Source of the DNA: Alloacidobacterium dinghuense
Lineage (GTDB): Bacteria; Acidobacteriota; Terriglobia; Terriglobales; Acidobacteriaceae
Reading direction: 5' to 3'
NCBI RefSeq assembly: GCF_014274465.1
Contig: NZ_CP060394.1
Span: 806,001-870,000 of the forward strand
DNA length: 64,000 nucleotides
The position numbers and the translations under genes were made by a program. Positions 7,362 through 62,912 of the stretch are shown in pieces. A model generated the notes under the pieces. The model worked only from the letters and a program-made list of their open reading frames with translations, was not told the DNA's origin and searched no databases. Every line of letters starts with the position of its first letter. Positions within the stretch are counted from its first letter, which is position 1.

Positions 7362-7423
7362 CTCGAAATGATTACTGAAGCCTGAATCTTTGCGGCGTCG
7401 GACCTGCGTTGCCACGTCCAAGG

Positions 7424-8233
7424 TCAGGCGGCCTTTTCCACTGGGATTTGAATCTCGGTCACGTACGACTCGTCATCCTGCCGCACAGGCGCTGTGCAGT
7501 AGTGGTACAGCTCGCGGAAAGGCCCTGCCAGCCGGTAATGGTTCTCTTCCACCCATCGCAGCAGATTCTGATAGGCCTGATCCAGGCGGTTATAGGCACC
7601 GTGATGCATGTAGCTCGCGACCCTGGTACTGCCGAGCTGATACATCTGCGTCGTTCCATGTGCTGGCAGGGGCTGTTTCAGCAGGAAGCCAGCTTCGCCA
7701 TCCACGTCTTTTTCTTTGTGTTCCAGGTCATGCCAAATCGCCACAGGCATGCCCAGCTCGCACCCGCCACCAATCTGGCTGATGACTTTGGGGTAAAGCA
7801 TTCCGATAGATGGATAATTGGGAATCACTTCCCGCAGCGACACGATCCACTGCGGCTCCACTTCTTTGATCACCACATCTGCGCTCATCATCGACTCCTG
7901 TTCCATGAATTTGATCAGTGTCTCCAATCGGGCGAGTCGTTCCTGCTCTTCGAATACGCGTGCCTCCTGCTCCGCGCGACGCAGAGCCACCATGCCGCGA
8001 AGCTCCTGCGGCGTGATGGTTCCTTCGAGCGTCCTGCCGATCTGCTCCAGCGAAAAACCCAGGTCTTTCAGAGCCAGGATTCTGTGCAGACGCGGCAGTT
8101 GCTGAGCGGAGTAATACCGGTAGCCGGTCCAGTTGTCCACGTGAGCTGGCCGCAGCAATCCGGTCTCGTCGTAGTACCGGAGCGTTTTGACCGAAATGTG
8201 CGTAAGTGCGGAAAACTCGCCGATCTTGAACAC
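7424..8233 (-). CDS. MerR-family transcriptional regulator with GyrI-like effector domain
   Basis: A BmrR-like activator of 269 residues. The N-terminal MerR winged helix (MFKIGEFSALTHISVKTLRYY, residues 1-70) is followed by a dimerisation coiled coil (~80-120, ARVFEEQERLARLETLIKF) and a C-terminal GyrI-like/effector-binding domain (~125-269, containing PVAIWHDLEH, YMHHGAYNRLDQAYQNLLRW and YVTEIQIPVEKAA). Such proteins bind bulky or cationic compounds and open suboptimal promoters. Its target is not obvious; the upstream MBL hydrolase gene is same-strand with a 77-bp gap. Ligand unknown. Confidence 0.88.
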   Translation of the reverse strand: MFKIGEFSALTHISVKTLRYYDETGLLRPAHVDNWTGYRYYSAQQLPRLHRILALKDLGFSLEQIGRTLEGTITPQELRGMVALRRAEQEARVFEEQERLARLETLIKFMEQESMMSADVVIKEVEPQWIVSLREVIPNYPSIGMLYPKVISQIGGGCELGMPVAIWHDLEHKEKDVDGEAGFLLKQPLPAHGTTQMYQLGSTRVASYMHHGAYNRLDQAYQNLLRWVEENHYRLAGPFRELYHYCTAPVRQDDESYVTEIQIPVEKAA

Positions 8234-40517: not shown

Positions 40518-41650
40518 AGGCCGCGATCTTGCTCGCTGCAACGCTCGGTTTATGCTGCCAGTCTGCAGCGAGAGCCAGCTCCTGGCCGTTGTGGGACCAC
40601 TATGCTGCGCATTTCCTCAGTCCTCAAGGCCGAGTTGTTGATCCGTCGCGGAATTCGATGACTACCTCAGAAGGACAGAGCTATGCCATGTTTTTCGCGC
40701 TTGTCGCAGGAGATAACAACTCATTTGATCGCATTCAGGAGTGGACGCAAGACAATCTCGCGCAAGGTGATCTTGCTAAGAAATTGCCTGCTTGGAGTTG
40801 GGGCCAAAAGAGCGATGGTTCGTGGGGGGTACTCGATCAGAACTCGGCATCAGACTCTGATCTTTGGGTCGCTTACAGCCTGATTGAAGCAGGCGAACTT
40901 TGGTCAAAGCCAGGCTACAGCAGAACCGGAAAGGCTATGCTGTCGTTGATCGCAAAGAATGAGAGCGCTACAGTGCCGCAGGCAGGTGCTGTTTTGTTGC
41001 CCGGCCCAAATGGCTTTCATCCGGATGCAGATCATTGGGTCTTTAATCCGAGCTACATGCCGCTGCCGTTGTTGCTCGCGGCGAGACATGTTGATCCTCA
41101 AGGACCGTGGAGTGCGATGGCCGCCGCTCTGCCTGCATGGCTGCAGCAGGCGAGCCCTTCCGGTTTTGCCATGGACTGGGTTGAATACACAAGCGGCAAA
41201 GGCTTTTCCGCAGTCAGCGAGCCAGGAACAAGTTCAAGGCCTGCCTGTGGCAGCTATGATGCAATCCGCGTGTATCTTTGGGTGGGCACTACCGCGCAGG
41301 ACTCACCGGGAGCTGCGAGCCTCCTGCATCTGTTTGCCCCCATGTCCAGCTATGTAAAGACACACCTTTCGCCACCTGAGGTAGTTAATCCCGATGGGAC
41401 GGTTGTGAGTACTACGGCTCCGCCGGGATTTTCAGCTGCGGTGATGCCGCTGCTCATGACATCCGGTGAAAAGGCCGCGGCCACTCTCCAGCTTCGAAAT
41501 GTACTGGCTCAAATTGAGCCGTCAACTGGGTTAGTTGGAGATCCGCCGCACTACTATGACCAGAATCTGGCGCTCTTCGCGCTGGGCTGGCAGGAACAAC
41601 GCTTTCGCTTCGCTCCCGATGGAACGCTGAGGGTCCAATGGAAAAAGTGA
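40514..41650 (+). CDS. bcsZ: Periplasmic cellulase BcsZ, glycoside hydrolase family 8
   Basis: Endo-beta-1,4-glucanase of 378 residues that edits nascent cellulose. Signal peptide (MKAAILLAATLGLCCQSAARA). GH8 features: general acid Glu in TTSEGQSYAM, the DSDLWVAYSLIEAG segment with conserved Asp, WGQKSDGSWGVLDQNSAS, and FNPSYMPLPLL. The ATG at 40514 overlaps the bcsAB TGA (ATGA), which fixes the start; a longer open frame upstream is not signal-like. The 3' end overlaps bcsC by 13 nt. Confidence 0.95.
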   Translation: MKAAILLAATLGLCCQSAARASSWPLWDHYAAHFLSPQGRVVDPSRNSMTTSEGQSYAMFFALVAGDNNSFDRIQEWTQDNLAQGDLAKKLPAWSWGQKSDGSWGVLDQNSASDSDLWVAYSLIEAGELWSKPGYSRTGKAMLSLIAKNESATVPQAGAVLLPGPNGFHPDADHWVFNPSYMPLPLLLAARHVDPQGPWSAMAAALPAWLQQASPSGFAMDWVEYTSGKGFSAVSEPGTSSRPACGSYDAIRVYLWVGTTAQDSPGAASLLHLFAPMSSYVKTHLSPPEVVNPDGTVVSTTAPPGFSAAVMPLLMTSGEKAAATLQLRNVLAQIEPSTGLVGDPPHYYDQNLALFALGWQEQRFRFAPDGTLRVQWKK

Positions 41651-44600
41651 ACCGTAACGCTTGCCGAACACTTCTTCTCGTGGCCACTTGTGCGCTGGCT
41701 CTCGGAATCTCGCCAGGCGCATGGGGTCAATCCACGGCGGAACGCGCCCTGTTGATGAAGGCGCAATCCCTCGCTGCAAATGGACACCTGGATATGGCGG
41801 TTCAGACTTGGCAGCAGGTACTACTCGCCGATCCGAACAGTCGAGAGGCGCTTCTTGGAATCGCCAAGGCTGACATGCAGCTCGGAAATACGGATGAAGC
41901 CAGAAGATATCTCGATCGTCTGCGCGCTGCCGGGGGTAATCCTGCGGATATCGCAAAGATCCAAGCTATGCCCGGTGTTGCGCCGAAGAATGTGCGCCTC
42001 GATCAGGCGGCCAGTCTTGCGCAGAGTGGCCGGTATGCAGACGCTATGCGGATCTACCGCGACGTTTTGGGCAATAATCCCCCTGCGGGAGACTACGCGC
42101 TCGCCTACTATGACACCGAGGCTGCCATCCCGGCGGACCGGCCTCATGCCGTTGCAGGATTACGGAAGCTCGCGCAGCAATTCCCGGCGGATTCCCGTTA
42201 CTCGATCACGCTCGGGCGCGTCCTCACATATGAACCGAAGACGCGCGCAGAAGGGATCGCAATCCTGCAGAGATACGATAATGTCCCGGCTGCGCAGAGT
42301 GCCCTGAAGCAAGCTGAGTCGTGGAATGCGGTTGCCAACGCTGCTCCGACTGCAGTGGACACCCAGGCCAAGCCAAAAGCCAGCACTCCCGCTGGGAACC
42401 CGCTGGAGGCATCGGCGTATCGCGCCCTCAATAGCGGTCGGTTGGATGAGGCTCGGCAGCAGTTCGAGACACTGCTGGCGAAGCAGCCAAACAACCCGCG
42501 AGCCCTGAGCGGAATGGGTTACGTGTACATGAAGCAGCAGGACTTCGCGGATGCATCGGACTATCTTGAACGTGCTCGCGCCGCAGGAGCACGGGGACTG
42601 GAAAGCGCGATTGCTACCTCGCGCTTCTGGGAGAAGATGTCGCAGGCAGGAGCCGCGTTGCAGGCGGGCGATTCGGATGCCGCCATCGAGTCCTATACGG
42701 CTGCGTTGTCACTCAAGCCATCGAGTCCTGACGCGCTGGAAGGTCTTGGAGGAGCTTATGTTCAGGCGGGAAACAACGCAGAGGCGATCGATGCCTTTGA
42801 ACGTGCAGTACGCGTCAGCCCTGACCGCCAAACCGCCTGGCGCGGCCTCTTTCTGGCCCAGTCGGCAGCAGGCAATTCTCAGGGAGCGCTGAATACCGGC
42901 GACCGTATGCCCAAGAATGTTCGCGCTCAGTTGAACTCTGATCCCGAATATCTGCGAGCGTTAGCACAGGATAACCTCGCGCTGGGCCGCAAAGCTGAAG
43001 CGGACCGCGCCATCGAGCGAGCGCTGGCTTTGCCGTTCCCGAATGAGGGGCGAGATCTGCCTCTTGATAAGCAGATGCAGTATGCGGCGTTGCTGATGAT
43101 GGCCAACAGATATGAGCCGGCGCTGCAGCTTTACCAGCAGATCGTTGCAGAAGACCCGGGGAATGCCGGAGCGTGGCGAGCGCTTATCGCCGCGCAGCAT
43201 CAACTCGGTCGTGATAACGATGCTCTTGCCACCATGGGTAGCATGCCGCAGGCAATCCTGAACAAGGAGCAAAGTGATCCCAGCTTCCTCGTTCTCGTTG
43301 GATCCATCTATCAGACGCGTCACGAGTGGGATCGCGCTCAGAAGTATCTGGAGCAAGCGCTCGCTGCTGCACCACCTCCTCAGACAGGAATCGAACTTCA
43401 GCTTGCCGATGTGTATGCGGCGAATGGCAATCAACAGAAGGCGTACACAATCTATCGTGAGGAGCTCGACAGGAATCCGCAGAATACGGATGCATGGCGC
43501 GGCATGCTGAATGCTCTTCATCAGGGAAATCACGACCGCGAGGCATTGCGGCAGATTGCCGCAATGCCTGAGTCTGTGCGCCTTCGCTTGGAACAGGACC
43601 CTTCATACTTGCAGACGCTGGCATCGATCCAGTCTGCGACCGGACAGAATCAGGCTGCGTTGAAGACCTTTGCGCAATTGACGCAAATCTATCGCGATCG
43701 CAACACGGACGAGCCAGTTGACGTGCTGATCCAATATGGCTGGGTGCTGCTGAGAACTGGCGACGACCAGAAGCTCTACGCTCTGGTTACGACTCTCTCC
43801 AATTCGGCTGATATGACGGACGATCAGCAGGCCGAGTTCAATCGCCTTGGAGCCAGCTGGAGTGTGCGTCGCGCGAACAGCGCGCTGGCTGTAGGCGATC
43901 AGAATCGTGCTGTGGCAATTCTTACGACAGCTGCGCAAGCTTTTCCCGGAAACGCTGAAGTCTACAGCGCGCTTGCCGGTGTCTACCTCAAGATCGGGCA
44001 GCCGAGGCAGGCGGTTGCAATTTACGCTTCGCTGGACATGACTCACGCGACCAGCCAACTGTATGAGAGTGCTATTGGCGCGGCGATGGCGGCGCGCGAC
44101 ATGAAGCAGGCAGAAACGTGGCTCGAAGACGCGCTCGATCAATACAAGAGCAATCCTTCGATTTTGCGGCTCGCTGCTCAATACGAACAGGCACGCGGAA
44201 ATTCCGATCGTGCGGCAGCTTACTATCGGGCTGCGCTCGATGCTATGGGGCCAGCCGGGCCTGGAGGGATCTTTGCGCAGCCTGGCAGCGATACGGGTGC
44301 TCCCGGAACATTGTCTCCTATGCAGCAGTTGATGCAGCTGCTTGCGCCCGCAGGGCGCACCGCACGGCTGAACGCTCCGGTCGATTCGTCTGAGAGCGGC
44401 AGCGCCGGCGATGTCTCCTGGCTGGACGCTCCCAGCAAGAGTGTTCCGACACTCGGCGACTTTGCGCAGTCCAGAGAAGGCGGTTCGGGGCGAAGTGTAG
44501 GTGATGATGCTGCGCTGAGGCAGCCGTCAACTTCGGCCCTAGGTGACTACGGAAGTCGTTATGATGCGTTGACTCCAACCAATGATCGCTATGTGCCTCC

Positions 44601-46218
44601 GACCGAGGCTTATGTGCGACCGACGAAGGTCACGCGGCGACACTCTGCTCCTCCAGTCGAGCAGGCGGTCGAGCAGGATCAGGTCTCGGCACCGATGGAC
44701 TATCTGGAACCGGTGACGATGAAAGTGCCTGCGCGACCGCTGACCACACCTGCGCCGCAAAACCCGCCGGTTTCTTTCGCACCAACATCCAAGTCGGCGC
44801 ATTTTCTTGACGCGAACGATTTGAATCCGGCGAGCAGGCTGCAATCGGCTGTGCGCGAAATGAACGGTCGAGTGCAGGATCCGCAGTCGACGGATACCGG
44901 GCTGCCGCCAATCGGGGAGGGGAGCCGGGATGCTACGCCACCGCCAGTGCCGCTGAATGCGCTGCCGGAGACGGCGCGGGCTGAGGCGCCGGCGTTACCG
45001 CCGCTCACCGGGCCGGGTGTGCACGTGGTGCGCGCGAAGACCCCGCGCGAGCAGATTGAGGATCAGCTGGCCATCATCCAGGGGGCATCGAGCCCATGGG
45101 TTGGCGGCAATGCCGGCATCGACTACCGCAGCGGTCAGCCGGGATACGACAAGCTCTCCGCCTACACGGGGCAGATTGAGGCTTCGAGCATGCTTGGGCC
45201 AGGCGTGAGAGGCACGGTCATCACGCGTCCGGTACTGCTTGATTCGGGCACAGCTACGACGACGGCTACCTTCCAGCAGGGAACATTACCGGCTGGCGCG
45301 ACACCGTACCTGCAGTCGGCGGCGGGCATTGGCGGCGAGTTCCAGTTGCGGACGGCTTCGTTTGCCGCCAACATTGGCTATACGCCTTACGATTTCCTCG
45401 TTCAGAACATCATTGGCGGAATCTATGTCCATCCTCCAACCTCGCATTTCACGCTGACGTTCGCGCGCGATCCAATCACGGACACGCAGCTTTCCTATGC
45501 CGGTTTGCGCGATCTCGGCAGCAGGGGGCCGACCTATGAGGGCAACACCTGGGGAGGCGTCGTCACCAATGCTGGAGAATTCCAATTGGCTTTTGGCAGC
45601 GCGCAATCCGGCTGGTACATCCAGGGCGGAGGGCAATACATCAGCGGCCGCCACGTTCAGGACAACACGCGCCTGGACGGCGACGCCGGGGCTTACTGGG
45701 CGGTGGTGCATCATCCCGATTACGGAAACCTGACCGTGGGCATGAACTTTTTCGGCATGCACTACGATCACAACCTGCGGTACTTCACCTACGGGCAGGG
45801 TGGCTATTTCAGTCCCGATACGTACATCCTTGCGGGCGTGCCTGTGACCTTCAATGGGCATCATGGCGCGCGGTTTCATTACCGGGTGCTCGGCAGTTTC
45901 GGTCTGCAGGCGTTCGACGAGGCCGCGACACCTTACTATCCGCTCGATCCTACGATTCAGTACGCGAGGAATAATCCTTATTACAGCGAGGCCACGAGCG
46001 TCAGCGCCAACTACAGCTTCGAGGGTGAGGGCGCTTACGCCATTGCCGAGCACTGGTACGTTGGCGGCTACATGAGCTTCAACAACACGCGGGATTATGC
46101 CAGCAGCAAGGGCGGCTTTTATGTGCGGTACCTCTTCCGTCCGCAACCGATGCTCGAAGAGAACGGTCCGACAGGGCTCTTCCCGATTACCGGGATGCGG
46201 CCGCTGAACGTGCCATAG
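41638..46218 (+). CDS. bcsC: Cellulose synthase subunit BcsC (TPR and outer-membrane porin)
   Basis: Exporter of 1526 residues that guides cellulose through the periplasm and outer membrane. Signal peptide (LLLVATCALALGISPGAWG), about 20 TPR-like helical pairs (residues ~30-870, repeats such as ALLGIAKADMQLGNTDEARR and ALEGLGGAYVQAGNNAEAID), a low-complexity linker rich in Pro/Ser (~870-1130) and a C-terminal BcsC beta-barrel domain (from SSPWVGGNAGIDYRSGQ to YVRYLFRPQP). Longer than E. coli BcsC by ~370 residues, mostly in the linker and TPR region. Last gene of the operon; terminator candidates follow. Confidence 0.95.
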   Translation: MEKVNRNACRTLLLVATCALALGISPGAWGQSTAERALLMKAQSLAANGHLDMAVQTWQQVLLADPNSREALLGIAKADMQLGNTDEARRYLDRLRAAGGNPADIAKIQAMPGVAPKNVRLDQAASLAQSGRYADAMRIYRDVLGNNPPAGDYALAYYDTEAAIPADRPHAVAGLRKLAQQFPADSRYSITLGRVLTYEPKTRAEGIAILQRYDNVPAAQSALKQAESWNAVANAAPTAVDTQAKPKASTPAGNPLEASAYRALNSGRLDEARQQFETLLAKQPNNPRALSGMGYVYMKQQDFADASDYLERARAAGARGLESAIATSRFWEKMSQAGAALQAGDSDAAIESYTAALSLKPSSPDALEGLGGAYVQAGNNAEAIDAFERAVRVSPDRQTAWRGLFLAQSAAGNSQGALNTGDRMPKNVRAQLNSDPEYLRALAQDNLALGRKAEADRAIERALALPFPNEGRDLPLDKQMQYAALLMMANRYEPALQLYQQIVAEDPGNAGAWRALIAAQHQLGRDNDALATMGSMPQAILNKEQSDPSFLVLVGSIYQTRHEWDRAQKYLEQALAAAPPPQTGIELQLADVYAANGNQQKAYTIYREELDRNPQNTDAWRGMLNALHQGNHDREALRQIAAMPESVRLRLEQDPSYLQTLASIQSATGQNQAALKTFAQLTQIYRDRNTDEPVDVLIQYGWVLLRTGDDQKLYALVTTLSNSADMTDDQQAEFNRLGASWSVRRANSALAVGDQNRAVAILTTAAQAFPGNAEVYSALAGVYLKIGQPRQAVAIYASLDMTHATSQLYESAIGAAMAARDMKQAETWLEDALDQYKSNPSILRLAAQYEQARGNSDRAAAYYRAALDAMGPAGPGGIFAQPGSDTGAPGTLSPMQQLMQLLAPAGRTARLNAPVDSSESGSAGDVSWLDAPSKSVPTLGDFAQSREGGSGRSVGDDAALRQPSTSALGDYGSRYDALTPTNDRYVPPTEAYVRPTKVTRRHSAPPVEQAVEQDQVSAPMDYLEPVTMKVPARPLTTPAPQNPPVSFAPTSKSAHFLDANDLNPASRLQSAVREMNGRVQDPQSTDTGLPPIGEGSRDATPPPVPLNALPETARAEAPALPPLTGPGVHVVRAKTPREQIEDQLAIIQGASSPWVGGNAGIDYRSGQPGYDKLSAYTGQIEASSMLGPGVRGTVITRPVLLDSGTATTTATFQQGTLPAGATPYLQSAAGIGGEFQLRTASFAANIGYTPYDFLVQNIIGGIYVHPPTSHFTLTFARDPITDTQLSYAGLRDLGSRGPTYEGNTWGGVVTNAGEFQLAFGSAQSGWYIQGGGQYISGRHVQDNTRLDGDAGAYWAVVHHPDYGNLTVGMNFFGMHYDHNLRYFTYGQGGYFSPDTYILAGVPVTFNGHHGARFHYRVLGSFGLQAFDEAATPYYPLDPTIQYARNNPYYSEATSVSANYSFEGEGAYAIAEHWYVGGYMSFNNTRDYASSKGGFYVRYLFRPQPMLEENGPTGLFPITGMRPLNVP

Positions 46219-47085: not shown

Positions 47086-47874
47086 ATTTCTCCACAAAAT
47101 CAAGCTGGTGTCAGCATCCTCGAACTCGGAGAGGATGCGAAGAAGTGGTACAGAGACCACGGCAAACGAGATCTTCGAACTTTCACCGGTCGGATGGACC
47201 TGATCATCAGAGAATTAGGGAGTCGCCCAGCAGACTCCGTAAAGCCTAAGGAGATCGACGACTGGCTAAGCGGTCATTCGGAGTGGAGTCCGGCCACCAA
47301 GAATAGATACAAGACCGTATTAAGTAAAGCGTACCAACTTGGACTTGGTGGCGACAGAGTCAGCCGGAATCCGGTCCGCTCAGTTGAGCGCAGAAATGAA
47401 GGAGACGGTCGAATACGTTATCTGCGACCTGAGGAAGAAGTCAGGCTCAAAGTGGCAATCGCACGACGTTATCCCGGGCACATGCCTGCGTTGGTCTTCG
47501 CGTTGCACACCGGCCTGCGCAAGTCGGAACAATTCGGATTGAGCTGGGGCGATGTTGATATGAACCGTAAAGTGATCATTGTTCCGCACCCGAAAAACAA
47601 TCGATCGCGAGAGATCACAATGAACGAAACTTGCTTCGCAGTTATCGAAAACCTTAACAAGAGTCGTCCCGATGACGACCGCGTGTTTCGGTCAGATCGA
47701 TACAAAAAACGGCCCATTGCCGACATCAAGAAGGCATTCGAAAACGCCTTAAAAGAAGCCAAGATCGAGGATTTCACTTGGCACTGCCTTCGTCATACTT
47801 TCATAACACGTCTTGTGCAGGCTGGCGTCGACTTACGCACTGTTCAATATCTTGCAGGTCATCAGAATCCATGA
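47086..47874 (+). pseudogene. Truncated tyrosine recombinase (phage-type integrase)
   Basis: Reading frame open from 47086 without a start codon until ATG 47194. It encodes the core-binding (SAM-like) domain (RTFTGRMDLIIRELGSRPAD, SPATKNRYKTVLSKAYQLG) and the catalytic domain with the first Arg in HTGLRKSEQFG, Lys region, the HxxR box in CLRHTF and GH in LAGHQN. It stops at GHQNP, before the nucleophilic Tyr, and lacks the N-terminal arm-binding domain. So it is inactive as a recombinase. It sits 26 nt after tRNA-Arg, the classic position for an island integrase. The 3' junction is with TIR-domain sequence, suggesting a deletion removed the rest. Confidence 0.85.
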
Positions 47875-48178
47875 CGTGCTCGATAAAGCAGACGTCGTTC
47901 TTCTGCTTGTAAGCTCTGACTTCCTCTCTTCACAATATTGCTATGACATCGAGGTCAAACGCGCTCTAGAACTCCACGAGTCCGGCAAGGTGCGCGTGAT
48001 CCCCATCATCCTCAGACCGTGCGAATGGCACCGAGCCCTGTTCTCGCAGCTTCAAGCCTTGCCAACGGGTGGACAGGCGGTGACTCACTGGAGAGACCAA
48101 GACACCGCATTTTACGACATCACGCGCGGCATACGCGAAGCGGTGAACTCTATCCGAATGCCAAGCCCAAAAAACTGA
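47862..48178 (+). pseudogene. 3' fragment of a TIR-domain protein gene
   Basis: In the frame next to the integrase frame, reading starts to match a bacterial TIR domain at IRIHDVLDKADVVLLLVSSD and continues FLSSQYCYDIEVKRAL, VRVIPIILRPCEW, LQALPTGGQAVTHW, TAFYDITRGIREAV. The Glu in YDIEVKRAL corresponds to the NADase catalytic position. The N-terminal strand and helix of TIR (about 25 residues) are missing and replaced by integrase DNA. The ORF has a nominal ATG at 47813 inside integrase sequence. TIR proteins of this type act in anti-phage defence or signalling; this copy is very likely dead. No partner gene is beside it. Confidence 0.8.
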
Positions 48179-49041: not shown

Positions 49042-49650
49042 ATGTCTGTCGGCGTATTTCCACCCGGGGGAAACTTTTCTCGCGTAATCGAAAGGACGAG
49101 CGCAATTGAGAATTCGTCGCGCGACTACCTTTGCGGAACCCACTGGTTTGCTGTGTGGACAAAGTCGCGCCAGGAGAAGACTGTGGCCGCGATGATTGCG
49201 TCCCTCGGTATTACAAACTTTCTTCCGCTGAAATCGGAGTCGCGCCAGTGGAGTGATCGAAAGCAAACGGTCAATGTGCCGCTTTTCAGTGGATACCTCT
49301 TCGTAAGAATGAGCCTTTCGGATGGTAACAAGCTTCTGGTTCTCCAGGTACCGGGAGTAGCGGGCTTTGTGGGCAATAGCCATGGACCATCGCCCATTCC
49401 GGAAGACCAAATCGAGGCGGTTCGCACCGTGGTCGAGCGCAGGGTTGAGTGCACAATCCACCCGCTTCTTGAAGAAGGAGACCGGGTGCGCGTGATTCGG
49501 GGGCCGCTTGCAGGTATAGAAGGGCGACTGGTCCGAATGAATTCCGTAGCGCGGCTAGTGATCTCGATCAGCATGATCCATCGTTCCCTCGCGGCACACG
49601 TGGATCGGGACGACGTGGAGCGATTCGAAGATTGCGCGGTAGCCTCGTGA
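49042..49650 (+). CDS. UpxY/RfaH-type NusG paralogue (transcription antiterminator)
   Basis: Specialised NusG of 202 residues at the head of the EPS locus. NGN domain (HWFAVWTKSRQEKTVAAMIA, FLPLKSESRQW, PLFSGYLFVRMSL, VPGVAGFVGN) and a C-terminal KOW domain (LEEGDRVRVIRGPLAGIEGRL). Such factors ride RNA polymerase and allow transcription through long, poorly translated polysaccharide operons, often recruited through a leader element. A ~30-residue N-terminal extension precedes the NGN. GAAGAGG lies upstream of the ATG. The next gene follows after 78 bp. Confidence 0.9.
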   Translation: MSVGVFPPGGNFSRVIERTSAIENSSRDYLCGTHWFAVWTKSRQEKTVAAMIASLGITNFLPLKSESRQWSDRKQTVNVPLFSGYLFVRMSLSDGNKLLVLQVPGVAGFVGNSHGPSPIPEDQIEAVRTVVERRVECTIHPLLEEGDRVRVIRGPLAGIEGRLVRMNSVARLVISISMIHRSLAAHVDRDDVERFEDCAVAS

Positions 49651-49728: not shown

Positions 49729-50421
49729 ATGAAGATGCGGAAAATTCTTTCGAGCGTTGTGTTCGCGCTCTGCGCCATAGTGTTTGGTCTGCTCGCGGGA
49801 CAAGCAGTTTGCCAGGCGCAAAGCACGGCCGGTTCAGGCCCGGTCCTCGAGCAGAGGCATCCGCGCTACATCCTACAGCGGGAAGATGTGTTGCTGGTCA
49901 GCTTTCCGCTTTCGACGGAGCTGAACCAGACGGTCACGATCCAACCGGACGGTTACATCAACCTACAAAATGCGGGTAGCGTATACGCGCAAGGGCTTAC
50001 GGCTCCGGAACTAGTCGAGGCCATCAAGAAGGGTTACGCAGGAATTCTTCATGACCCGATCGTGAATATCGACGTGCAGGATTTTCAGAAGCCGCTTTTC
50101 ACCGTGTCGGGCCAGGTTGGCAAGCCGGGGCAGTATGAGTTGCGCTCCGACATCACGGTGGCAGAGGCGATCGCTGTGGCCGGAGGCATGACGATGCCAA
50201 CCGCAAAGGCTCAGGTCTTTCTGTTTCACCGTACCTCCAAGGACTGGATGGAAGTGAAACAAGTAAATCTCAAGGACGTATTGAACGGAAAGAACGTGAA
50301 CGAGGATGCAATGATTATGCCCGGCGACATGATCTATGTGCCGGAGAAGTTCATTGCGAAGTTCAAGAAGTACGTCCCGTACTCGGTTAACGCGGTTGCC
50401 GGCTGGTATGGGGTGCCGTAG
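49729..50421 (+). CDS. Polysaccharide export protein, Wza family
   Basis: Outer-membrane export component of 230 residues. Signal peptide (ILSSVVFALCAIVFGLLAG), a polysaccharide biosynthesis/export (PES) domain (RYILQREDVLLVSFPLSTEL, VTIQPDGYINLQNAG) and one SLBB domain (FTVSGQVGKPGQYELR, TVAEAIAVAGG, MIMPGDMIYVPE). Shorter than Wza and with no clear lipobox or outer-membrane helix, so the pore may need another protein. ATG 49729 with AAAAGGAG at good spacing is chosen over an upstream in-frame start. Confidence 0.92.
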   Translation: MKMRKILSSVVFALCAIVFGLLAGQAVCQAQSTAGSGPVLEQRHPRYILQREDVLLVSFPLSTELNQTVTIQPDGYINLQNAGSVYAQGLTAPELVEAIKKGYAGILHDPIVNIDVQDFQKPLFTVSGQVGKPGQYELRSDITVAEAIAVAGGMTMPTAKAQVFLFHRTSKDWMEVKQVNLKDVLNGKNVNEDAMIMPGDMIYVPEKFIAKFKKYVPYSVNAVAGWYGVP

Positions 50422-50478: not shown

Positions 50479-51972
50479 ATGCAAAGGATCAACGCTCGAC
50501 GCCGTCCGACTCCGGAAGAAGAAGGTGTCTCACTGCGCGATTTGGTCGCGCCTCTTTTCCGACAAAATCGGATTCTCATTATCACGCTCGTGGCTTCATT
50601 TGTCGTACTGGTTCCGCTGGGACTGCTTTTCCTTTACAAGTACAGGTCGCAGATGGGAATTCTGGTCAATCACGAGCGCGTTGATTCACCTGTCACCACA
50701 GGCGTGCCGAACCAGACAATCACCGAGCAGATCGCAGTTGCCGAGGAGGAGATCAATTCCGAGGCCGAACTTCTCCTCAGCCGGGACATTCTAGAAAAAG
50801 TCGTGATCGCCAATCACCTGCAGGACAGAGGCTTCTCGCTAAGTAATCTTGTTCCCGGGCATGACGAGTCCTACCGCATTGCTCAGGCAGTGAAAACGCT
50901 GGCGCGGAAGATCAAGGTGAGGCCCTCCACCAAGGCGAACATCATCGACGTTTCGTACAGCTCGCACGACCCGAAGCTCTCTTATGCCGTGTTGAATTCG
51001 CTGGCCGGGTTTTACCTCGAGAAACACGCGGAAGTGCATCGCCCGCAGGGGTCCTACGAGTTTTTCGCCGCACAAACGAACAGCTACAAAGAGGCCCTCG
51101 ACGATTCGGAGGCGAAGCTGCGCACCTTTGTGCAAACCTCTGGCGGTGCCGCTCCGGACGTCGAGCGTGCCGACCTCGATCAACAACTGACCACTTCTAT
51201 CGGCCAACTGCATGCTACGCAGCAGGCTATTGCTGCGGATGAAATGCGCATCCGCAACGATCAAGCCCAGATGAAGACGATCGCGCCGCGCATAACGACA
51301 CAGTTGTCGTCTGCTCCACCGGACATGCTGTTGCAGAATCTCGGCACGGCGCTGCTGGCAGCGGAAACGAAGCGAACGCAATTGCTGTTGAAATACGACC
51401 CGAGTTACCCACTGGTAAAGGAAGCGGATGATGAGGTTGCACAGGCTAAGGCAGCGTTCGAGAAGGCGGAGAACACCAAATACGTAACCGAGGCTACGAA
51501 TATGGACCCGACCTACGAACTGTTACGTGAAGAGTCGGCCAAGACGCAGTCCGATCTTGCTGCACAGAAGGCCAGTCTCGCCGCGAACGAGGCAAGCATC
51601 AACAACCTGCAGTCAAAGATGAGCGATCTGGCCGAAAAAAACCTGGATCTTACTGATTTGGCGCGGGACCAGAAGACCAATGAGGATAATTATCTGCTCT
51701 ACCTGGCCAAGCGCGAACAGGCAAGGAGTTCAGAGGCGCTGGATAAGACGAAGATTGAAAACGTCGACATCGCCATCCCGCCGACGATTCCAGTCCTCCC
51801 GATCATGTCACCAGTGATGGTGGTACTACTGGCGTTTGTGGTCGCAGCATTTTTGAGCATCATGACTGCCTTCGCCTTCGACCACTTCGATTCTTCGTTC
51901 CATTCGCCAGCCGAGGTGGTGGACATGCTGGGAATCCCGGTGGTCGTTCCCATGTCAAAGAAAACCGCTTAG
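50479..51972 (+). CDS. Wzz-type polysaccharide co-polymerase (chain length determinant)
   Basis: Inner-membrane protein of 497 residues. An N-terminal TM (ILIITLVASFVVLVPLGLLFL) is followed by a Wzz domain (VDSPVTTGV), a long periplasmic coiled coil (residues ~190-420) and a C-terminal TM (PVMVVLLAFVVAAFLSIMTAF). The cytoplasmic kinase domain is absent; a separate kinase-like protein is encoded two genes downstream. AAAAAGGAG precedes the start. Sets chain length and couples synthesis to export. Confidence 0.92.
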   Translation: MQRINARRRPTPEEEGVSLRDLVAPLFRQNRILIITLVASFVVLVPLGLLFLYKYRSQMGILVNHERVDSPVTTGVPNQTITEQIAVAEEEINSEAELLLSRDILEKVVIANHLQDRGFSLSNLVPGHDESYRIAQAVKTLARKIKVRPSTKANIIDVSYSSHDPKLSYAVLNSLAGFYLEKHAEVHRPQGSYEFFAAQTNSYKEALDDSEAKLRTFVQTSGGAAPDVERADLDQQLTTSIGQLHATQQAIAADEMRIRNDQAQMKTIAPRITTQLSSAPPDMLLQNLGTALLAAETKRTQLLLKYDPSYPLVKEADDEVAQAKAAFEKAENTKYVTEATNMDPTYELLREESAKTQSDLAAQKASLAANEASINNLQSKMSDLAEKNLDLTDLARDQKTNEDNYLLYLAKREQARSSEALDKTKIENVDIAIPPTIPVLPIMSPVMVVLLAFVVAAFLSIMTAFAFDHFDSSFHSPAEVVDMLGIPVVVPMSKKTA

Positions 51973-51979
51973 GAAGACC

Positions 51980-53485
51980 ATGGTTTTGCGCCATTTCAAT
52001 CTTCGCGAGCAGCCGTTCGGCGTTACGCCGGATCCACGCTTTCTGTATGCGACAGCGACCCATCGTGAAGCATTGGCTGCGCTGCGGTACGGAATCGAAG
52101 CGGGTTTAGGATTCGTATCGCTGATTGCGAACCCGGGGATGGGCAAGACGACAATTCTTTTCGAAGCGCTAGCGCAGCTAGGCGATACGGCGCGAACCGT
52201 CTTCCTGTTCCAGTCGATTCAGACTCCCCTCGACCTGTTTCGTGCTTTGCTGATCGATCTGGGTGAGAAAAATCCGCAGGGAAGTGTGGTCGACCTCGAA
52301 ACCCGCCTCAACGAGATTTTGCTGCAGCAAAACAAGACAGGCAAGAAGCTCATTGTGGTCCTGGACGAAGCGCAGAATCTCGACTTCGCGGTGCTCGAAG
52401 CTGTACGCATGTTGTCCAACTTCGAAACGCCGAGCCTGAAATTGGTCCAAATCGTTCTTTGCGGACAGCTGCAGCTCGGCGACCGGCTCGCCGAACCGCA
52501 GCTTTTGCAGCTTCGTCAGCGGATCTCGATCTTTGCCAGTCTCCACTCGCTTTCGACAACCGAAGTTGCGAATTACATTCAGCATCGGCTTAAGGTCGCG
52601 GGCTACGAGAACGCAAAACCGCTGTTCACCAACGGTGCGATGGAAATGATTGCCCGGCATAGTGGCGGAATTCCGCGAAACATCAACAACATCTGTTTCA
52701 ACGCGCTTACGATTGGGTGCGCTTTAGGCAAACGATGCATTGAGGCAGAGATCATTCGCGAGGTGATCGGCGACCTCAAGGTGCAGAAGGCGGAACGGAG
52801 CGAGCCTATCACCATCACCCAAGCGACCGACGCACGACCGATCATTCCACTGCCCAAGCGCGAAGGAGGTCTTGGTTTGCGCGTCGCTGGATTCGCAGCT
52901 GTGTTCTTCGTTGTATCCGTCATGGCTTACGTATTGGTTCTAGCCAGTTCCGGCGACGCGGGGACAGACAAAATTCACCGTGATGCTACGATCAGCACGC
53001 ACCCGCCCTCGACCCATGCCAACCTTCAGAAGCTTGTTCCAGTCGTTGCGCCGCCCTCGACCGGTACCAAGATTCCAGAGGCAACTCCAACCGTAACCCC
53101 GAAGCAGATGCCAGTTTCAACTCCTGCCGCCGACCCGGCGAAAGCCACGCCGCCCACCCAGGTCGACAAACAGAAAGGATCCTCTCCGGCACCTCTGGCT
53201 CGTGGGAACAAGGACACTCATATGCAGAGAACCGCCGCCGGTTTCGTGGATCGTCCGGTGACTGCGGGCAACAAGATCCGCCTCGTAGAAGCGCACAGAA
53301 CACAATCACTGATCGACTTGTGCACCGAACAATTTGGGCGGTGCGAGCCCGCACTTCTGAAGCGAATCATCGAGCTCAATCTGCTACTCGCCGATCCCAA
53401 CCACATCAAGCAAGGCAACATAATCATCATGCCCGAAGCTGCAACCTCGCCGGAAGTCGACCGTCAAAAGCCGAGCGGCGGATAG
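51980..53485 (+). CDS. ExeA/GspA-like AAA ATPase with TM helix and LysM-like periplasmic tail
   Basis: Three-part protein of 501 residues. Residues 1-270 are an ExeA/TniB-type AAA domain (FNLREQPFGVTPDPRFLY, Walker A IANPGMGKTT, Walker B LIVVLDEAQNL, arginine-finger region LLQLRQRISIFA). A TM helix (VAGFAAVFFVVSVMAYVLVLA, ~293-315) is followed by a Pro/Thr-rich periplasmic stretch and a C-terminal LysM-like or peptidoglycan-binding domain (SLIDLCTEQFGRCEPALLKR ... GNIIIMPEA). In type II secretion, ExeA remodels peptidoglycan to insert a secretin; here it may do so for the Wza pore. 7 bp after wzz. ExeA-like ATPases also occur in exosortase EPS loci, but no exosortase is seen. Confidence 0.85.
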   Translation: MVLRHFNLREQPFGVTPDPRFLYATATHREALAALRYGIEAGLGFVSLIANPGMGKTTILFEALAQLGDTARTVFLFQSIQTPLDLFRALLIDLGEKNPQGSVVDLETRLNEILLQQNKTGKKLIVVLDEAQNLDFAVLEAVRMLSNFETPSLKLVQIVLCGQLQLGDRLAEPQLLQLRQRISIFASLHSLSTTEVANYIQHRLKVAGYENAKPLFTNGAMEMIARHSGGIPRNINNICFNALTIGCALGKRCIEAEIIREVIGDLKVQKAERSEPITITQATDARPIIPLPKREGGLGLRVAGFAAVFFVVSVMAYVLVLASSGDAGTDKIHRDATISTHPPSTHANLQKLVPVVAPPSTGTKIPEATPTVTPKQMPVSTPAADPAKATPPTQVDKQKGSSPAPLARGNKDTHMQRTAAGFVDRPVTAGNKIRLVEAHRTQSLIDLCTEQFGRCEPALLKRIIELNLLLADPNHIKQGNIIIMPEAATSPEVDRQKPSGG

Positions 53486-53516: not shown

Positions 53517-54257
53517 ATGAGCAAGCACTTTGAACTGATGCAGCAGATCGAGAAGGAACGGGTTCAAGAGGTGTCCGACTCCCGGATTCCGTTCTCGGAT
53601 TTCACGCGGAATGGCAATCATTCCGAGAGCCTTTGGGCAAGCGACGAAGCGCAGCGTCTGGTCCAGCAATTGTTCGTTTTCCAAGTTAAAGAACCGCCGC
53701 AGGTGGTGACCTTCGCGGGAATTGATCACGGCAATGGCTGCAGTCGCATTTGCGCAGACGTCGCCGAGACCTTAGCCAAGAACAAGCGCGGGCGCGTGTG
53801 CCTTGTCGAAGCTAACTTCCGTTCTCCGGCATTGCCGGGAATGTTCGGCGTGCCGAACCACTTCGGCCTGACCGAGGCTCTGCTGCGCGACGAAGCAGTA
53901 AGCCAGTTCGCCAAGCCTCTTCCCCAACAGAATCTCTGGCTGCTTTCGTCCGGCACGCTGGCGGTGGATTCGCCCAGTCTGCTTTCCTCAGTGCAACTGC
54001 GCACACGCATCGCCGAACTGAGGCAGGAGTTTGATTTCGTCATTGTGGATGCGCCCCCGCTGAATCGCTATTCGGACGGGATCGTGCTCGGACAGCTCTC
54101 CGACGGTCTTGTCCTGGTCATTGAAGCCAACACAACCCGGCGTGAGGCAGCAGCCGCGGTAACAGAGAATCTGCAGGCGGCCAAAGTGCCTATTCTGGCC
54201 GCGGTGCTAAACAAACGAACTTTCCCCATTCCTGAGCCCATCTACAAGATCCTCTAA
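53517..54257 (+). CDS. BY-kinase-like (CpsD/CapB) protein with degenerate P-loop
   Basis: A 246-residue MinD-fold protein of the bacterial tyrosine kinase family. In the Walker A position it reads FAGIDHGNGCSRICADVAET, so the GxxxxGKS/T Lys is absent (NGCSR). The A' box is LVEANFRSPAL (usual DADLR) while the Walker B FVIVDAPPL is normal. The usual C-terminal Tyr cluster is missing; only one Tyr is near the end (PIYKIL). It likely binds Wzz but may not phosphorylate. Whether it is an adaptor or a pseudo-kinase is inference. Upstream of the sugar-transferase gene by 192 bp. Confidence 0.82.
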   Translation: MSKHFELMQQIEKERVQEVSDSRIPFSDFTRNGNHSESLWASDEAQRLVQQLFVFQVKEPPQVVTFAGIDHGNGCSRICADVAETLAKNKRGRVCLVEANFRSPALPGMFGVPNHFGLTEALLRDEAVSQFAKPLPQQNLWLLSSGTLAVDSPSLLSSVQLRTRIAELRQEFDFVIVDAPPLNRYSDGIVLGQLSDGLVLVIEANTTRREAAAAVTENLQAAKVPILAAVLNKRTFPIPEPIYKIL

Positions 54258-54449: not shown

Positions 54450-55886
54450 ATGAATGATCACCATAGGCTGATAATTGGACTTCTGAAGGTATTCGATCTC
54501 GTCCTGGTCGTGCTGGCGTTTGCATTGACCACGATAAGCCGCGTGAAAGCCGAGCACACAGTAACACTCGGCGAGTTCCTCTCAATGCGCGCCAAGATAT
54601 CGAATCTCGCCATCATTCTCTTCGCCGTTGTCGTTTGCCACGTAATCTTCACGATGTACGGACTGTACCAGTCGCGCAGGTTGACCGGTCGCAAGAGCGA
54701 AGCGCTGGACCTATTGCGTGCTACGACAACGTACATCCCTTTTTTTCTGGCTCTAAGCGTTGTGTTTTCGATCCGGATGATCACTATTGCATTCCTGGCG
54801 GAGTTCTGGGTCCTGACAACATGCTTCCTGGTCGCCTCCCGATTCATTTTGCGGATTGTGGGCGATCATGTGCGGACACAGGGACGCGATCAGCGCCACA
54901 TGCTGATTCTGGGTACCAACGGGCGCGCGATCGAGTTTGCGCGCCGCATCCTTGTCAGCCGCGAACGCGGATATCGCCTGCTTGGATTCGTGGACGATGA
55001 TTGGCCGGGACTCGATGCGCTGAAAAGAGTCGGTTTTTCGGTAGTCAGTGACTATACAGGCTTGGAAGAGTATTTGCGTCGAAACGTGGTAGACGAAGTC
55101 GCGATCTATTTACCACTGGGCTCATATTATAAGCACTGTTCCCATGTGGCCAATCTTTGCCAGCAGCACGGAATTACGATGCGGATCCACGCCGACATCT
55201 TTGGAGTCAAGTCCACCCGCTGGCGACCCGAGGATTTTGAAGGCGACCAATACATTGCGACCTACACCTCGGCAAGCGAACTTTGGCCACGAACTTTGAA
55301 ACGCGTCTTCGATATCGTGGTCGCTAGCTTAGCACTTGTCGCCCTGCTCCCGGTCTTCGCGCTTACAGCGGTCGCGGTGAAGCTAAGCTCGCCCGGGCCG
55401 ATTTTCTTTCGCCAGCAACGCATCGGGTTGAATAAGCGCCGATTCAAAATGCTGAAGTTCCGCTCGATGGTTCACCATGCCGAGGCGCTGATGCCGGCGC
55501 TCGAGAAGTGGAATGAAGCCAGCGGTCCAGTTTTCAAAATCAGGAACGATCCCAGGATCACCCCGGTTGGCCAGCTGCTGCGCCGGAGCAGCATCGATGA
55601 GCTGCCGCAGCTGCTGAATGTGCTGGCGGGCGATATGAGCCTTGTCGGGCCCCGCCCATTGCCCGTGCGCGACTTTGACGGATTTCACGAAGACTGGCAG
55701 CGCCGGCGCTTCAGTGTTAAACCGGGCATCACGTGCCTGTGGCAAGTGCAGGGTCGCAGCGATCTGTCCTTCGAACGGTGGATGGAGCTTGATCTGAAAT
55801 ATCTGGACGAATGGTCGCTGTGGCTCGATCTTAAAATTCTGACTCGTACCGTTCCCGCCGTTTTTCGGGGAGCCGGGGCTGCCTGA
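54450..55886 (+). CDS. Undecaprenyl-phosphate sugar phosphotransferase (WcaJ-type initiating enzyme)
   Basis: Starts repeat-unit synthesis by transferring a sugar-1-phosphate, usually glucose, to undecaprenyl phosphate. 478 residues: four N-terminal TM helices, a CoA-binding-like soluble domain (MLILGTNGRAIEFARRI), a fifth membrane helix (VFDIVVASLALVALLPVFAL), and the catalytic bacterial sugar transferase domain (KLSSPGPIFFRQQRIGLNKR, FKMLKFRSM, LLRRSSIDELPQLLNVLAGD, GPRPLP, KPGITCLWQVQGRS). ATG with GCGGAGAA upstream. Confidence 0.94.
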   Translation: MNDHHRLIIGLLKVFDLVLVVLAFALTTISRVKAEHTVTLGEFLSMRAKISNLAIILFAVVVCHVIFTMYGLYQSRRLTGRKSEALDLLRATTTYIPFFLALSVVFSIRMITIAFLAEFWVLTTCFLVASRFILRIVGDHVRTQGRDQRHMLILGTNGRAIEFARRILVSRERGYRLLGFVDDDWPGLDALKRVGFSVVSDYTGLEEYLRRNVVDEVAIYLPLGSYYKHCSHVANLCQQHGITMRIHADIFGVKSTRWRPEDFEGDQYIATYTSASELWPRTLKRVFDIVVASLALVALLPVFALTAVAVKLSSPGPIFFRQQRIGLNKRRFKMLKFRSMVHHAEALMPALEKWNEASGPVFKIRNDPRITPVGQLLRRSSIDELPQLLNVLAGDMSLVGPRPLPVRDFDGFHEDWQRRRFSVKPGITCLWQVQGRSDLSFERWMELDLKYLDEWSLWLDLKILTRTVPAVFRGAGAA

Positions 55887-57910: not shown

Positions 57911-59179
57911 ATGTTGAGGGCGCTGATCAAGAGCAAGCTTGGGAGAAATACGCTGTGGATGTCCCTGGGACAGGGGCTTCGACTTTTAGTTCAGGCTACG
58001 TATTTCACGATTATCGCCCGGACGCTTGGCGCAAATTACTACGGGTCGTTTGTGGGCGTGGCGGCGCTGGTGGGTATCGTCTACCCTTTCGGCGCGCTCG
58101 GCAGTGGTCATCTGCTGGTGCGGTCAGTAGCTCGCAACAAGACCGAGTTCCCAACGGCGTGGGGAGACGCCCTGGTGACAACAGCCATCTGCAGTACCTT
58201 GCTGATCGCATTTGTTCTCTTGATCTCGCGAACCTTACTGCCGGGCACGATTCCCGTGAACCTGGTGCTGGTGGTCGCGATCGCGGACATTCCTGGAGTC
58301 AGCCTGATTACGATCGCCGGACAGGCGTTTCAGTCGTTCGAGCATATGAAGTGGCTGGCGCTCATCACCCTGCTCACTAGCGTCAACCGGCTGCTGGGGG
58401 CGCTGCTGCTGGTTATGCTGCGCAGTCATCCGACAGCGCTCGAATGGGGCTATGTTTATCTGATCTGCACGGCGGTTACCGCGACGATCTCCATTGCGAT
58501 GACCTGCTTTCGACTGGGATTTCCGCAACTGCGGTTGCGGCGATCAATGCGCGCCTTGTGGCACGGATTTCATTTTTCGGTTACGCTCAGCGCGCAAACT
58601 ATTTACAACGACATCGATAAGACGATGTTAACGCGCTTCAGTACGTTGAGTGCGACGGGAATTTACGGCGCAGCGTATCGGATCATCGATGTGAGTTTCT
58701 CGCCGGTGCTGGCTTTGCTCTATTCGGCCTATCCGAATTTTTTTCGCAAGGGAAGCGCAGGAATCAATTCCAGCTACTCCTATGCGAAGGCGCTGATGGG
58801 CCGCGCTATGGGTTACGCGGCGCTCATCGCCTGTGGATTGCTTCTATGCGCCGGCGGTGTTCCCTATGTGCTCGGACCTGAGTATGCAGAGACAACCGTC
58901 GCGCTGCGTTGGCTCTCGCCGCTGCCTTTGTTGAAGGCAACGCATTACTTTTTGGCTGATTCACTCACCGGCGCAGGACACCAGGGGCTGCGTAGCGGTA
59001 TTCAGGCCGGCGTGGCGCTCTTTAACGTTGTCATTAATCTCTGGCTCATTCCCCGATATTCCTGGATGGGAGCTGCATGGTCGAGCATCGCCTCCGATGC
59101 GCTGCTGGCCATATCCGTGGGGACCGCCGTTTATGTCTTGTCCCGCTCGACCCGCGAGGTGGTTCAGACGGAGCCATAG
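57911..59179 (+). CDS. Polysaccharide flippase, Wzx family
   Basis: Membrane protein of 422 residues with ~12 TM helices of the polysaccharide-biosynthesis/MATE-like MOP superfamily (LWMSLGQGLRLLVQATYFTI, ARTLGANYYGSFVGVAALVG, TMLTRFSTLSATGIYGAAYR). It would move the lipid-linked repeat unit to the periplasm. GGAAGGAT lies just before the ATG. 45 bp after the transferase gene. Confidence 0.9.
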   Translation: MLRALIKSKLGRNTLWMSLGQGLRLLVQATYFTIIARTLGANYYGSFVGVAALVGIVYPFGALGSGHLLVRSVARNKTEFPTAWGDALVTTAICSTLLIAFVLLISRTLLPGTIPVNLVLVVAIADIPGVSLITIAGQAFQSFEHMKWLALITLLTSVNRLLGALLLVMLRSHPTALEWGYVYLICTAVTATISIAMTCFRLGFPQLRLRRSMRALWHGFHFSVTLSAQTIYNDIDKTMLTRFSTLSATGIYGAAYRIIDVSFSPVLALLYSAYPNFFRKGSAGINSSYSYAKALMGRAMGYAALIACGLLLCAGGVPYVLGPEYAETTVALRWLSPLPLLKATHYFLADSLTGAGHQGLRSGIQAGVALFNVVINLWLIPRYSWMGAAWSSIASDALLAISVGTAVYVLSRSTREVVQTEP

Positions 59180-61649: not shown

Positions 61650-62912
61650 GTGCGGAAGTTCGAACGAATCGTAATCTTCATCCTTCTCTTGCTGGCAACG
61701 GGAGCCGGACAGAGCTTTATCGTGAACCCTGAGGCTTCTGCCGCCGATCGCGGCCAGTCAGTGACCCAGGTGATATTCGGGTTGATCTATCTGGTTCTGA
61801 TCCTCTTTCTTGTGAAATTCCGCAGCTCTGCGCTTAGTCTCGTGCTAAAAGATCGATGGCTGGCCGCTTTGTGCGTTTTGGCAATACTGTCTGTGGCCTG
61901 GTCCGTCGAGCCGGCAGAGTCGCTTCGCCGCTCGATTGCATTGGTCGGATCGACAATCGCGGGCCTCTACCTCGGATTGCTCAATGAGCCGAAAGAACAA
62001 CTCAAAGCGGTTGGCTACGCGATCGGATTGGGAGCGTTGGGCAGCGTTGCCGTAGCGATTCTGGTTCCTTCCGTTGCCTTCATGCCAACGGGCGAACTGC
62101 AGGGAGTTTATTTTCTTAAGAACACGCTGGGGCATATGATGTCTCTCGGGGCGTTCTGCTTTGCCCTGATGGCGCTGTACGAACGCGGCCGGAGGGTGGT
62201 GCACGTTGGAATGTTTTTACTCTGCTGTGTGCTGCTGGTGTTGTCGAAGTCGGCGACGGCAGCGGTGGTCACGATGTTGATGCTGATCCTGTTGCCGTTG
62301 CGCAAACTCCTTTACCTTCGGACTCGACGTTTACTTGCGGCAATTGCGGTTCTCGGTCCGGTTCTGGCCTTCACGACAATCTGGATCGTCAACTCCTCGG
62401 AAGACCTGCTGGCGGCACTGGGCCGCTCATCTTCGCTGTCAGGCCGCATCCCACTGTGGCAGCACGTTCTGCAGCAGATTGGCGACCGGCCAATTCTCGG
62501 TTATGGCTTTTCGGCCTTCTGGAACAGTTGGCAGGGCGAGCGGGTGAGTGACGCGGTGAACTGGGACAGCGCCGTGCCTCACGCCCACAACGGCTTTCTG
62601 GAGGTGTGGCTGGGGCTGGGCATCGTCGGGCTGGTGATGATTCTGCTCAGCCTGTCGCGCAACTTCCTTCTCTCACTTCGTATCGCGCGCAGCAATCGAG
62701 AGATGGAATATTCCTGGCCACTGCTTCTGGTCATTTTCACAGCGCTCTACAACCTGACGGAGAATTCATTCCTTGTGGTGAACACCACGCCATGGATTGC
62801 GTACTGTGCGGCGAGCTATTGGCTAGCGGGAACTGCCCGTGAGGCAGCACGGACGACGGAAGAGGAGCTTGAGGCGCAGCCGGCTGAGGCAGAGCCCGCG
62901 TTTTCGTCCTGA
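61650..62912 (+). CDS. O-antigen polymerase/ligase family protein (Wzy)
   Basis: Polytopic membrane protein of 420 residues, ~11 TM helices. The large periplasmic loop and PF04932-type Wzy_C segment are visible: GRSSSLSGRIPLWQHVLQQI, ILGYGFSAFW, and AHNGFLEVWLGLGIVGLVM with the conserved His. In a Wzx/Wzy locus it most likely polymerises repeat units. Start is GTG at 61650 with AAGGAGC upstream. Confidence 0.9.
   Translation: MRKFERIVIFILLLLATGAGQSFIVNPEASAADRGQSVTQVIFGLIYLVLILFLVKFRSSALSLVLKDRWLAALCVLAILSVAWSVEPAESLRRSIALVGSTIAGLYLGLLNEPKEQLKAVGYAIGLGALGSVAVAILVPSVAFMPTGELQGVYFLKNTLGHMMSLGAFCFALMALYERGRRVVHVGMFLLCCVLLVLSKSATAAVVTMLMLILLPLRKLLYLRTRRLLAAIAVLGPVLAFTTIWIVNSSEDLLAALGRSSSLSGRIPLWQHVLQQIGDRPILGYGFSAFWNSWQGERVSDAVNWDSAVPHAHNGFLEVWLGLGIVGLVMILLSLSRNFLLSLRIARSNREMEYSWPLLLVIFTALYNLTENSFLVVNTTPWIAYCAASYWLAGTAREAARTTEEELEAQPAEAEPAFSS

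Follow-up and report, generated by a model that had tools for sequence, protein, structure and literature searches.

A kinase-dead BY-kinase-like protein as a probable co-polymerase scaffold in a polysaccharide operon of Alloacidobacterium dinghuense

A Wzx/Wzy-type operon is encoded on one strand of the window, the 64,000-nucleotide stretch of Alloacidobacterium dinghuense DNA analysed here (NZ_CP060394.1, positions 806,001 to 870,000). Its genes run from an antiterminator through an OPX export protein, a PCP-2 co-polymerase, an AAA ATPase, a pseudokinase, an initiating phosphoglycosyl transferase (PGT), an epimerase and a WecG-type transferase to a flippase and further genes, including one of Wzy type (Table 1). 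The co-polymerase has no kinase domain and its tail reads FDSSFHSPAEVVDMLGIPVVVPMSKKTA. Pfam scans of 16 proteins of the window showed no tyrosine phosphatase domain at E <= 0.001. An XrtA/PEP-CTERM exopolysaccharide system was considered and rejected, as the 6.27 Mb genome has no exosortase (PF09721) match at E <= 0.001. Upstream of the operon, 41638-46218 encodes a TPR protein of 1526 aa that carries a C-terminal BcsC domain (cellulose-type export). Just before the operon, an ORF for a phage-type integrase (226 aa) overlaps a short TIR-domain ORF within 47194-48178; both of these look like fragments.

Table 1. Genes of the polysaccharide operon and motifs of the predicted pseudokinase, in window coordinates
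Feature	Position	Strand	Basis or remark
UpxY/NusG-like antiterminator	49042..49650	+	NF033644 128.5 bits, above cut-off; upstream of pseudokinase
OPX polysaccharide export protein	49729..50421	+	PF02563, SLBB; in-frame ATG start, scanned from the codon after it
Wzz/PCP-2 co-polymerase, 497 aa, without kinase domain	50479..51972	+	TIGR03007 (146 bits), GNVR and Wzz, all below cut-offs
AAA ATPase, XrtA-associated type, PGMGKTT intact	51980..53485	+	TIGR03015 216.6 bits, under cut-off of 324.5
Predicted BY pseudokinase gene	53517..54257	+	246 aa, ATG to TAA; TIGR01007 below cut-off; BY-kinase fold
N-terminal helix MSKHFELMQQIEKER	53517..53567	+	helix at residues 3-17 in AlphaFold2 model
Altered EX2RX2R oligomerisation helix DEAQRLVQQ	53643..53669	+	family consensus EE..KLVQR
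Degenerate Walker A GIDHGNGCSR, Lys to Cys75	53718..53747	+	sequence, alignment
Degenerate Walker A' VCLVEANFRSP	53796..53828	+	alignment
Intact Walker B FDFVIVDAPP	54030..54059	+	alignment
C-terminal end LNKRTFPIPEPIYKIL, in place of Tyr tail	54207..54254	+	alignment of 102 members
Initiating phosphoglycosyl transferase (PGT)	54450..55886	+	TIGR03025 416.5 bits, above cut-off
Wzx-type flippase	57911..59179	+	PF01943
Wzy-type polymerase/ligase	61650..62912	+	PF04932

The protein encoded between the AAA ATPase and the PGT had been predicted, from the letters of the window, to lack the Walker A lysine and the tyrosine cluster and to have an altered A' box but an intact Walker B. All four claims were borne out. 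Walker A (residues 68-77, G68-IDHGNG-C75-S76-R77) has Cys75 at the position of the catalytic lysine, and both aspartates of the usual DxD of the A' box (residues 94-104) are replaced (E98, N100). D178 of Walker B (residues 172-181) is retained, and a single tyrosine (Y243) is found among the last 16 residues. The oligomerisation helix motif (EX2RX2R) is altered and reads EAQRLVQ. The features of a canonical BY kinase (GxxxGK[ST], scores above the TIGR01007 and TIGR03018 cut-offs, a Tyr cluster) are all absent: the protein reaches 85.6 bits with NCBIfam TIGR01007 (tyrosine autokinase; cut-off 108.05) and 70.3 bits with TIGR03018 (cut-off 230.65). Pfam returned a weak ParA match alone, under its cut-off. 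All 15 of the solved-structure sequences matched by the protein at E <= 0.01 are BY kinases (BceF, VpsO, CapAB, Wzc and Etk).

The AlphaFold2 model of the protein (30 alignment rows) has a mean pLDDT of 85.7. Averages are 85-98 for ten-residue blocks from residues 41 to 230 and 59 for the last block, and residues 20-35 fall below 50. The low-confidence C-terminal end would fit a peptide that becomes ordered on a partner. The top Foldseek match of the model is CapA2B2 (E-value: 3.5e-15). VIA gave VpsO (Z 28.6; 1.9 A, 201 residues), CapAB (27.0) and Wzc (26.6), with BY kinases occupying the ranking down to BceF (21.8) and MinD/Soj next, at 17.7 and lower. By both sequence and fold, the best solved-structure matches are the kinase domains of Wzc, Etk, VpsO and BceF. 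These kinases are catalytically competent, and those of the Wzc type are fused to the co-polymerase, whereas the window protein is stand-alone.

Homologues were aligned in 102 rows, made up of 84 hits of a class-level profile search at E <= 1.3e-52 (the window included), 17 hits of a search of the bacterial family and the locus L007. The rows were picked by score and not by P-loop, yet the profile itself was built from lysine-less sequences. None of the 102 members has the Walker A lysine, its position being filled by Cys in 64, Ser in 18, Ala in 8 and other residues in 12. The original prediction had set against itself the case of a one-off mutation, in which homologues at the same locus would all carry GK[ST]; lysine was instead found in 0 of 102, at loci of the same type. 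The lysine is lost throughout, NGCS as such is conserved only in part, and the exact GxGC[ST] occurs in 42 of 102. Lysine is likewise absent at the aligned position from the sequences kept outside the 102, which are seven members of subfamily B (L169-L175), L180, a paralogue in the window's own genome (L198) and a protein of genome G827 (L200). GK[ST] is present in 17 of 17 proteins labelled canonical, although this count serves more to describe than to test, because the label was assigned after motifs and tails had been seen. These 17 rows are 12 of 20 comparison regions, L008 and four genes of the own genome; the remaining eight comparison regions are L169-L175 and L180.

The termini of the family are conserved. 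The C-terminal end follows R-T-F-P-I-P-x-x-[I/L]-Y, in which Arg, the second Pro and Tyr are each shared by 100 of 102 members. Tyrosines in the last 30 residues number 0-3 in the family (n = 102) versus 3-9 in canonical proteins (n = 17), the ranges meeting at 3. The N-terminal start resembles MS[RK]NFELLQ, with the loose pattern S[RK].[FYIV][EDQS] matched in 84 of 102. The helix EE..KLVQR is conserved in place of EX2RX2R, which is preserved in one member. Pairwise dN/dS was calculated for 21 hand-picked pairs, one of which was saturated; it is below 0.26 in 18 of the 20 computable pairs and 0.47 and 0.48 in the other two, with dS of 0.10 and 0.19. These ratios, which indicate purifying selection in most of the pairs tested, and the confident BY-kinase fold support the earlier view that the protein is conserved and not randomly decayed. 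Pseudogene decay or a one-off mutation could still be argued from those two pairs, both with low dS, and from one class-search match (G320) with an internal TAG, the other top matches listed being free of internal stops. For the clade, this explanation is ruled out by the missing lysine, the conserved termini and the low ratios in 18 of 20 pairs, and overall its probability is close to nil. ORF starts were assigned mechanically, so some ORFs extend too far upstream (e.g. L127 and L150), and the ORF of L139 lies in the frame that has an internal stop. Judged from sequence, the ability of the window protein to phosphorylate itself or other proteins has most likely been lost.

The nucleotide site is eroded to differing degrees among the members. 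The second Gly of GxG is retained in 88 of 102 and the Walker B Asp in 71, and the lysine position is followed by Ser/Thr in 82; at the A' box, the second Asp is replaced by Asn in 86. Because S76 and the Walker B Asp remain, as does the first A' Asp in 91 of the 102 members, weak nucleotide binding may persist. The protein might then be a live nucleotide-binding switch (an ADP/ATP sensor) that works through Ser76, Asp178 and the small residue of the lysine-less P-loop, in keeping with the frequencies of the Gly, the Ser/Thr and the Walker B Asp. However, Ser/Thr, both A' aspartates and the Walker B Asp are jointly present in only three of 102 members, and the C-terminal end is kept by subfamily B and by the G827 protein despite their scrambled P-loops. 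Such a switch is considered improbable.

The gene neighbourhood points to a co-polymerase partner. Exactly one BY-kinase-like ORF is present in each of the 102 stretches. Where at least 1500 nt of upstream sequence is available (94 stretches), a Wzz-type PCP is encoded on the same strand in 91, and a PCP or AAA gene lies within 700 nt upstream of the pseudokinase in 92, the nearest being AAA in 64 and PCP in 28. In 70 of these 94 loci an AAA gene shares the strand of the pseudokinase. Only one of 413 recognised neighbours is on the opposite strand. Over all 102 stretches, a PCP is upstream in 89, downstream only in five and not seen in eight, five of which have less than 1500 nt upstream. L089 and L166 have no recognisable PCP within about 7 kb on either side, and L077 has none in a stretch that spans only 1.5 kb upstream. 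In other loci, PCP ORFs above 400 aa measure 412-625 aa, and many PCP tails, judged by eye, carry the usual DxSFRTPxEVxxxLxIPVLAxxP segment. The EcpK report describes a segment of this kind as docking with the kinase or pseudokinase in CapA and EpsV (PMC12004946).

The window protein is probably a phosphorylation-independent BY pseudokinase that acts as a scaffold for the Wzz/PCP-2 co-polymerase of an external polysaccharide. It would bind the cytoplasmic C-terminal tail of the upstream co-polymerase, as CapB binds the CapA tail, and through binding alone would support co-polymerase assembly and couple polymerisation to export. The likeliest points of contact with the co-polymerase, or with the AAA ATPase, would be the N-terminal helix and the C-terminal FPIPxxIY end. 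We infer both the Wzz/PCP partnership and the independence from ATP from sequence and gene order. Weighed against a scaffold were the fixed tyrosine (Y243; 100 of 102), the residual Mg-site residues, the loci without a PCP and the altered oligomerisation helix; as EX2RX2R is altered, a Wzc-like octamer may not form.

The AAA ATPase could have a larger part. The pseudokinase would then be an adaptor between the adjacent AAA ATPase and the co-polymerase, with the AAA supplying an ATP-driven cycle in place of autophosphorylation. In favour of this, the recognised gene closest upstream is AAA in 64 of the 94 loci, and 70 of them have an AAA gene on the strand of the pseudokinase. It also agrees with an AAA P-loop that stays intact while the pseudokinase loses its own (GK[ST] is kept in 72 of 73 AAA ORFs of the same operons, and the 73rd ends at a contig end before the P-loop), and with a conserved C-terminal end that is as poorly modelled (block mean 59) as a possible docking peptide might be. 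However, 24 of the 94 loci have no AAA in the fetched stretch. A canonical locus of the same genome (L199, described below) also has an AAA, so the AAA is not confined to kinase-dead loci and its link with the pseudokinase is weakened. Single long ORFs run from AAA into pseudokinase in L086 (2859-5099, 746 aa) and L115 (3133-6177, 1014 aa). A true fusion was rejected in both, by eye, as probable frameshift or assembly read-through, because untypical sequence stands in place of the expected AAA C-terminus and intergenic region, and L086 also has a run of undetermined residues. An adaptor role is rated unlikely. We give the same low chance to an evolutionary form of it, in which a lineage of Acidobacteria inside and close to the class would have rebuilt the kinase module as a non-enzymatic coupler, the intact AAA driving the co-polymerase cycle by way of the pseudokinase and its nearly invariant R-T-F-P-I-P-x-x-[IL]-Y docking peptide, which replaces the phosphorylatable tail.

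Canonical and kinase-dead forms occur together in the A. dinghuense genome. Four genes score above the TIGR01007 cut-off, with GEGKST, REGKST, GDGKTT and AEGKST and with Tyr-rich tails throughout; being picked by that cut-off, they form an independent control. One locus at about 1.45 Mb (L199, 1-8922) encodes NusG, OPX, PCP, AAA, kinase and PGT in the shared-gene order of the window, interrupted by two extra ORFs, one separating NusG from OPX and the other OPX from PCP. Its canonical, apparently active stand-alone BY kinase (6539-7546; REGKST, YYYY in the tail) occupies the pseudokinase slot. It has the fold of the window protein and of other canonical stand-alone kinases (S. aureus CapB, XrtA-associated TIGR03018) and a similar N-terminal helix (the start MSKHFELMQQIEKER of the window protein resembles its MSLIFDALQRSEEER), but the window protein has neither its GKST nor its Tyr tail. 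At about 5.987 Mb, on the minus strand, a second kinase-dead BY-like protein (L198, 7875-8504) has GEGVTH for GEGKST and the end LNKRKYFVPQWIYRRLAAN; its gene is flanked by OPX and PCP genes. Both forms of the slot are thus found within one genome. Since kinase-dead and canonical operons with the same shared-gene order coexist, the contribution of phosphorylation can be tested in one organism.

The canonical kinases of the genome raise the further alternative that the window protein is a substrate, Tyr243 being phosphorylated in trans by a canonical BY kinase of another locus to control the hold on the co-polymerase. The near-fixed tyrosine (100 of 102) would fit this, as would the presence of four canonical BY kinases and two LMW phosphatase-like matches in the genome. 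On the other hand, the tyrosine sits in a motif with equally fixed Arg and Pro and may be structural, and both phosphatase matches are distant (4.19 Mb, the window locus being at 0.86 Mb). The authors of the EcpK study also argue that such pseudokinases are independent of active BY kinases (PMC12004946). We regard a substrate role as a slim prospect and retain the scaffold as the preferred reading.

Non-phosphorylating partners of this kind have been described. Current models have Wzx/Wzy co-polymerases of this class cycle via Tyr phosphorylation, with EcpK and HfsB as described exceptions (PMC12004946); phosphorylation of Wzc is lost when K540 is mutated, and the K540M protein is found as a homogeneous octamer (PMC8285477). 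The EcpK report states that EcpK is important for EPS in Myxococcus xanthus, that it binds its PCP, EpsV, and stabilises it independently of phosphorylation, and that EcpK and EpsV are mutually needed for accumulation (PMC12004946). Judged by these published descriptions, the window protein is like EcpK (MXAN_7447) in its stand-alone BY-kinase fold, its lack of consensus Walker motifs (Walker B excepted) and of a Tyr tail, and its putative PCP-2 partner without a kinase domain (PMC12004946). Differences are also apparent from that text. The EcpK gene lies away from its PCP gene, whereas the acidobacterial gene usually adjoins a PCP or AAA gene, and the C-terminal helix of EcpK has no Tyr and several Lys/Arg, unlike the acidobacterial end RTFPIPxxIYxRL (PMC12004946). 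HfsB of Caulobacter crescentus is described there as similarly stand-alone, without catalytic residues or a Tyr tail, and as important for the stability of its PCP-2, HfsA (PMC12004946). The HfsB pathway is that of the holdfast, unlike the window operon. Its host also belongs to a different phylum from A. dinghuense.

The class proposed for the window protein is that of the BY pseudokinases, the third PCP-2 subfamily as set out in the EcpK report (PMC12004946). Because it shows the pseudokinase features that can be tested in sequence, the kept Walker B being a reservation, it can be counted as a member in kind of the EcpK/HfsB subfamily. No report of an acidobacterial BY pseudokinase was found among the literature matches listed, and the body of the EcpK article does not contain the string 'Acidobacter' (PMC12004946). 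The acidobacterial clade is a large, distinct new lineage of this already described kind, with its own C-terminal signature and a mostly AAA-linked operon. Three proteins scanned against NCBIfam, with matches taken up to E 1, hit no model named for EcpK or HfsB. The three match NCBI tyrosine-autokinase models below cut-off, so similarity-based annotation could mislabel such proteins.

The distribution of the operon is patchy. Among 150 genomes of the bacterial family to which the window belongs, 33 (the own genome counted) have a homologue at E <= 1e-25. The sample includes three further members of the genus, and none of these has one, although two of them are just 77% and 59% complete. The class profile search gave at least 84 hits at E <= 1.3e-52 in at least 65 of 399 sampled genomes, a strict lower bound because subfamily B and canonical kinases overlap in score below the cut-off and six candidates were scored per genome, weaker matches being partly listed. 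Proteins for which autophosphorylation is very unlikely by sequence are thereby encoded in at least 65 of the 399 class genomes. The phylum sample (E <= 1e-48) yielded five of 396 genomes, four from the family of the window (the own included) and one, G827, labelled with the same phylum only. A search of genome contigs yielded a single close homologue, L007 (Silvibacterium bohemicum S15, 65%), along with three distant matches.

In a likelihood tree made from 90 rows, after removal of the Walker A and A' columns, 75 lysine-less sequences are separated from 15 canonical ones by a branch with 100/97 support. Group A is represented in it by 62 of 97 members, thinned at 62% identity, and the canonical set by 15 of its 17 rows. 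The topology is consistent with a single loss of the kinase lysine. Subfamily B (L150, L164, L165, L167, L168 and L169-L175) is one clade with 100/100 support; its P-loop is scrambled (QETDVSG in L165) and its C-terminal end resembles RTFPIPxxIYRRL. Longer variants of about 400-440 aa are found in L119, L120, L121, L124, L132, L134-L136 and L141, and in L119 a long linker separates the N-terminal MSKNFELLQ start from the kinase-like domain. In the A' strand, C95 (window 53799-53801) is Cys in 99 of 102 members and Leu in most canonical rows. The G827 protein (L200, 7240-8058), with OPX and PCP genes upstream, has an erased P-loop (SVDGVEGSALV) and the end RTFPIPEAIYRLL; this member may have been acquired by transfer.
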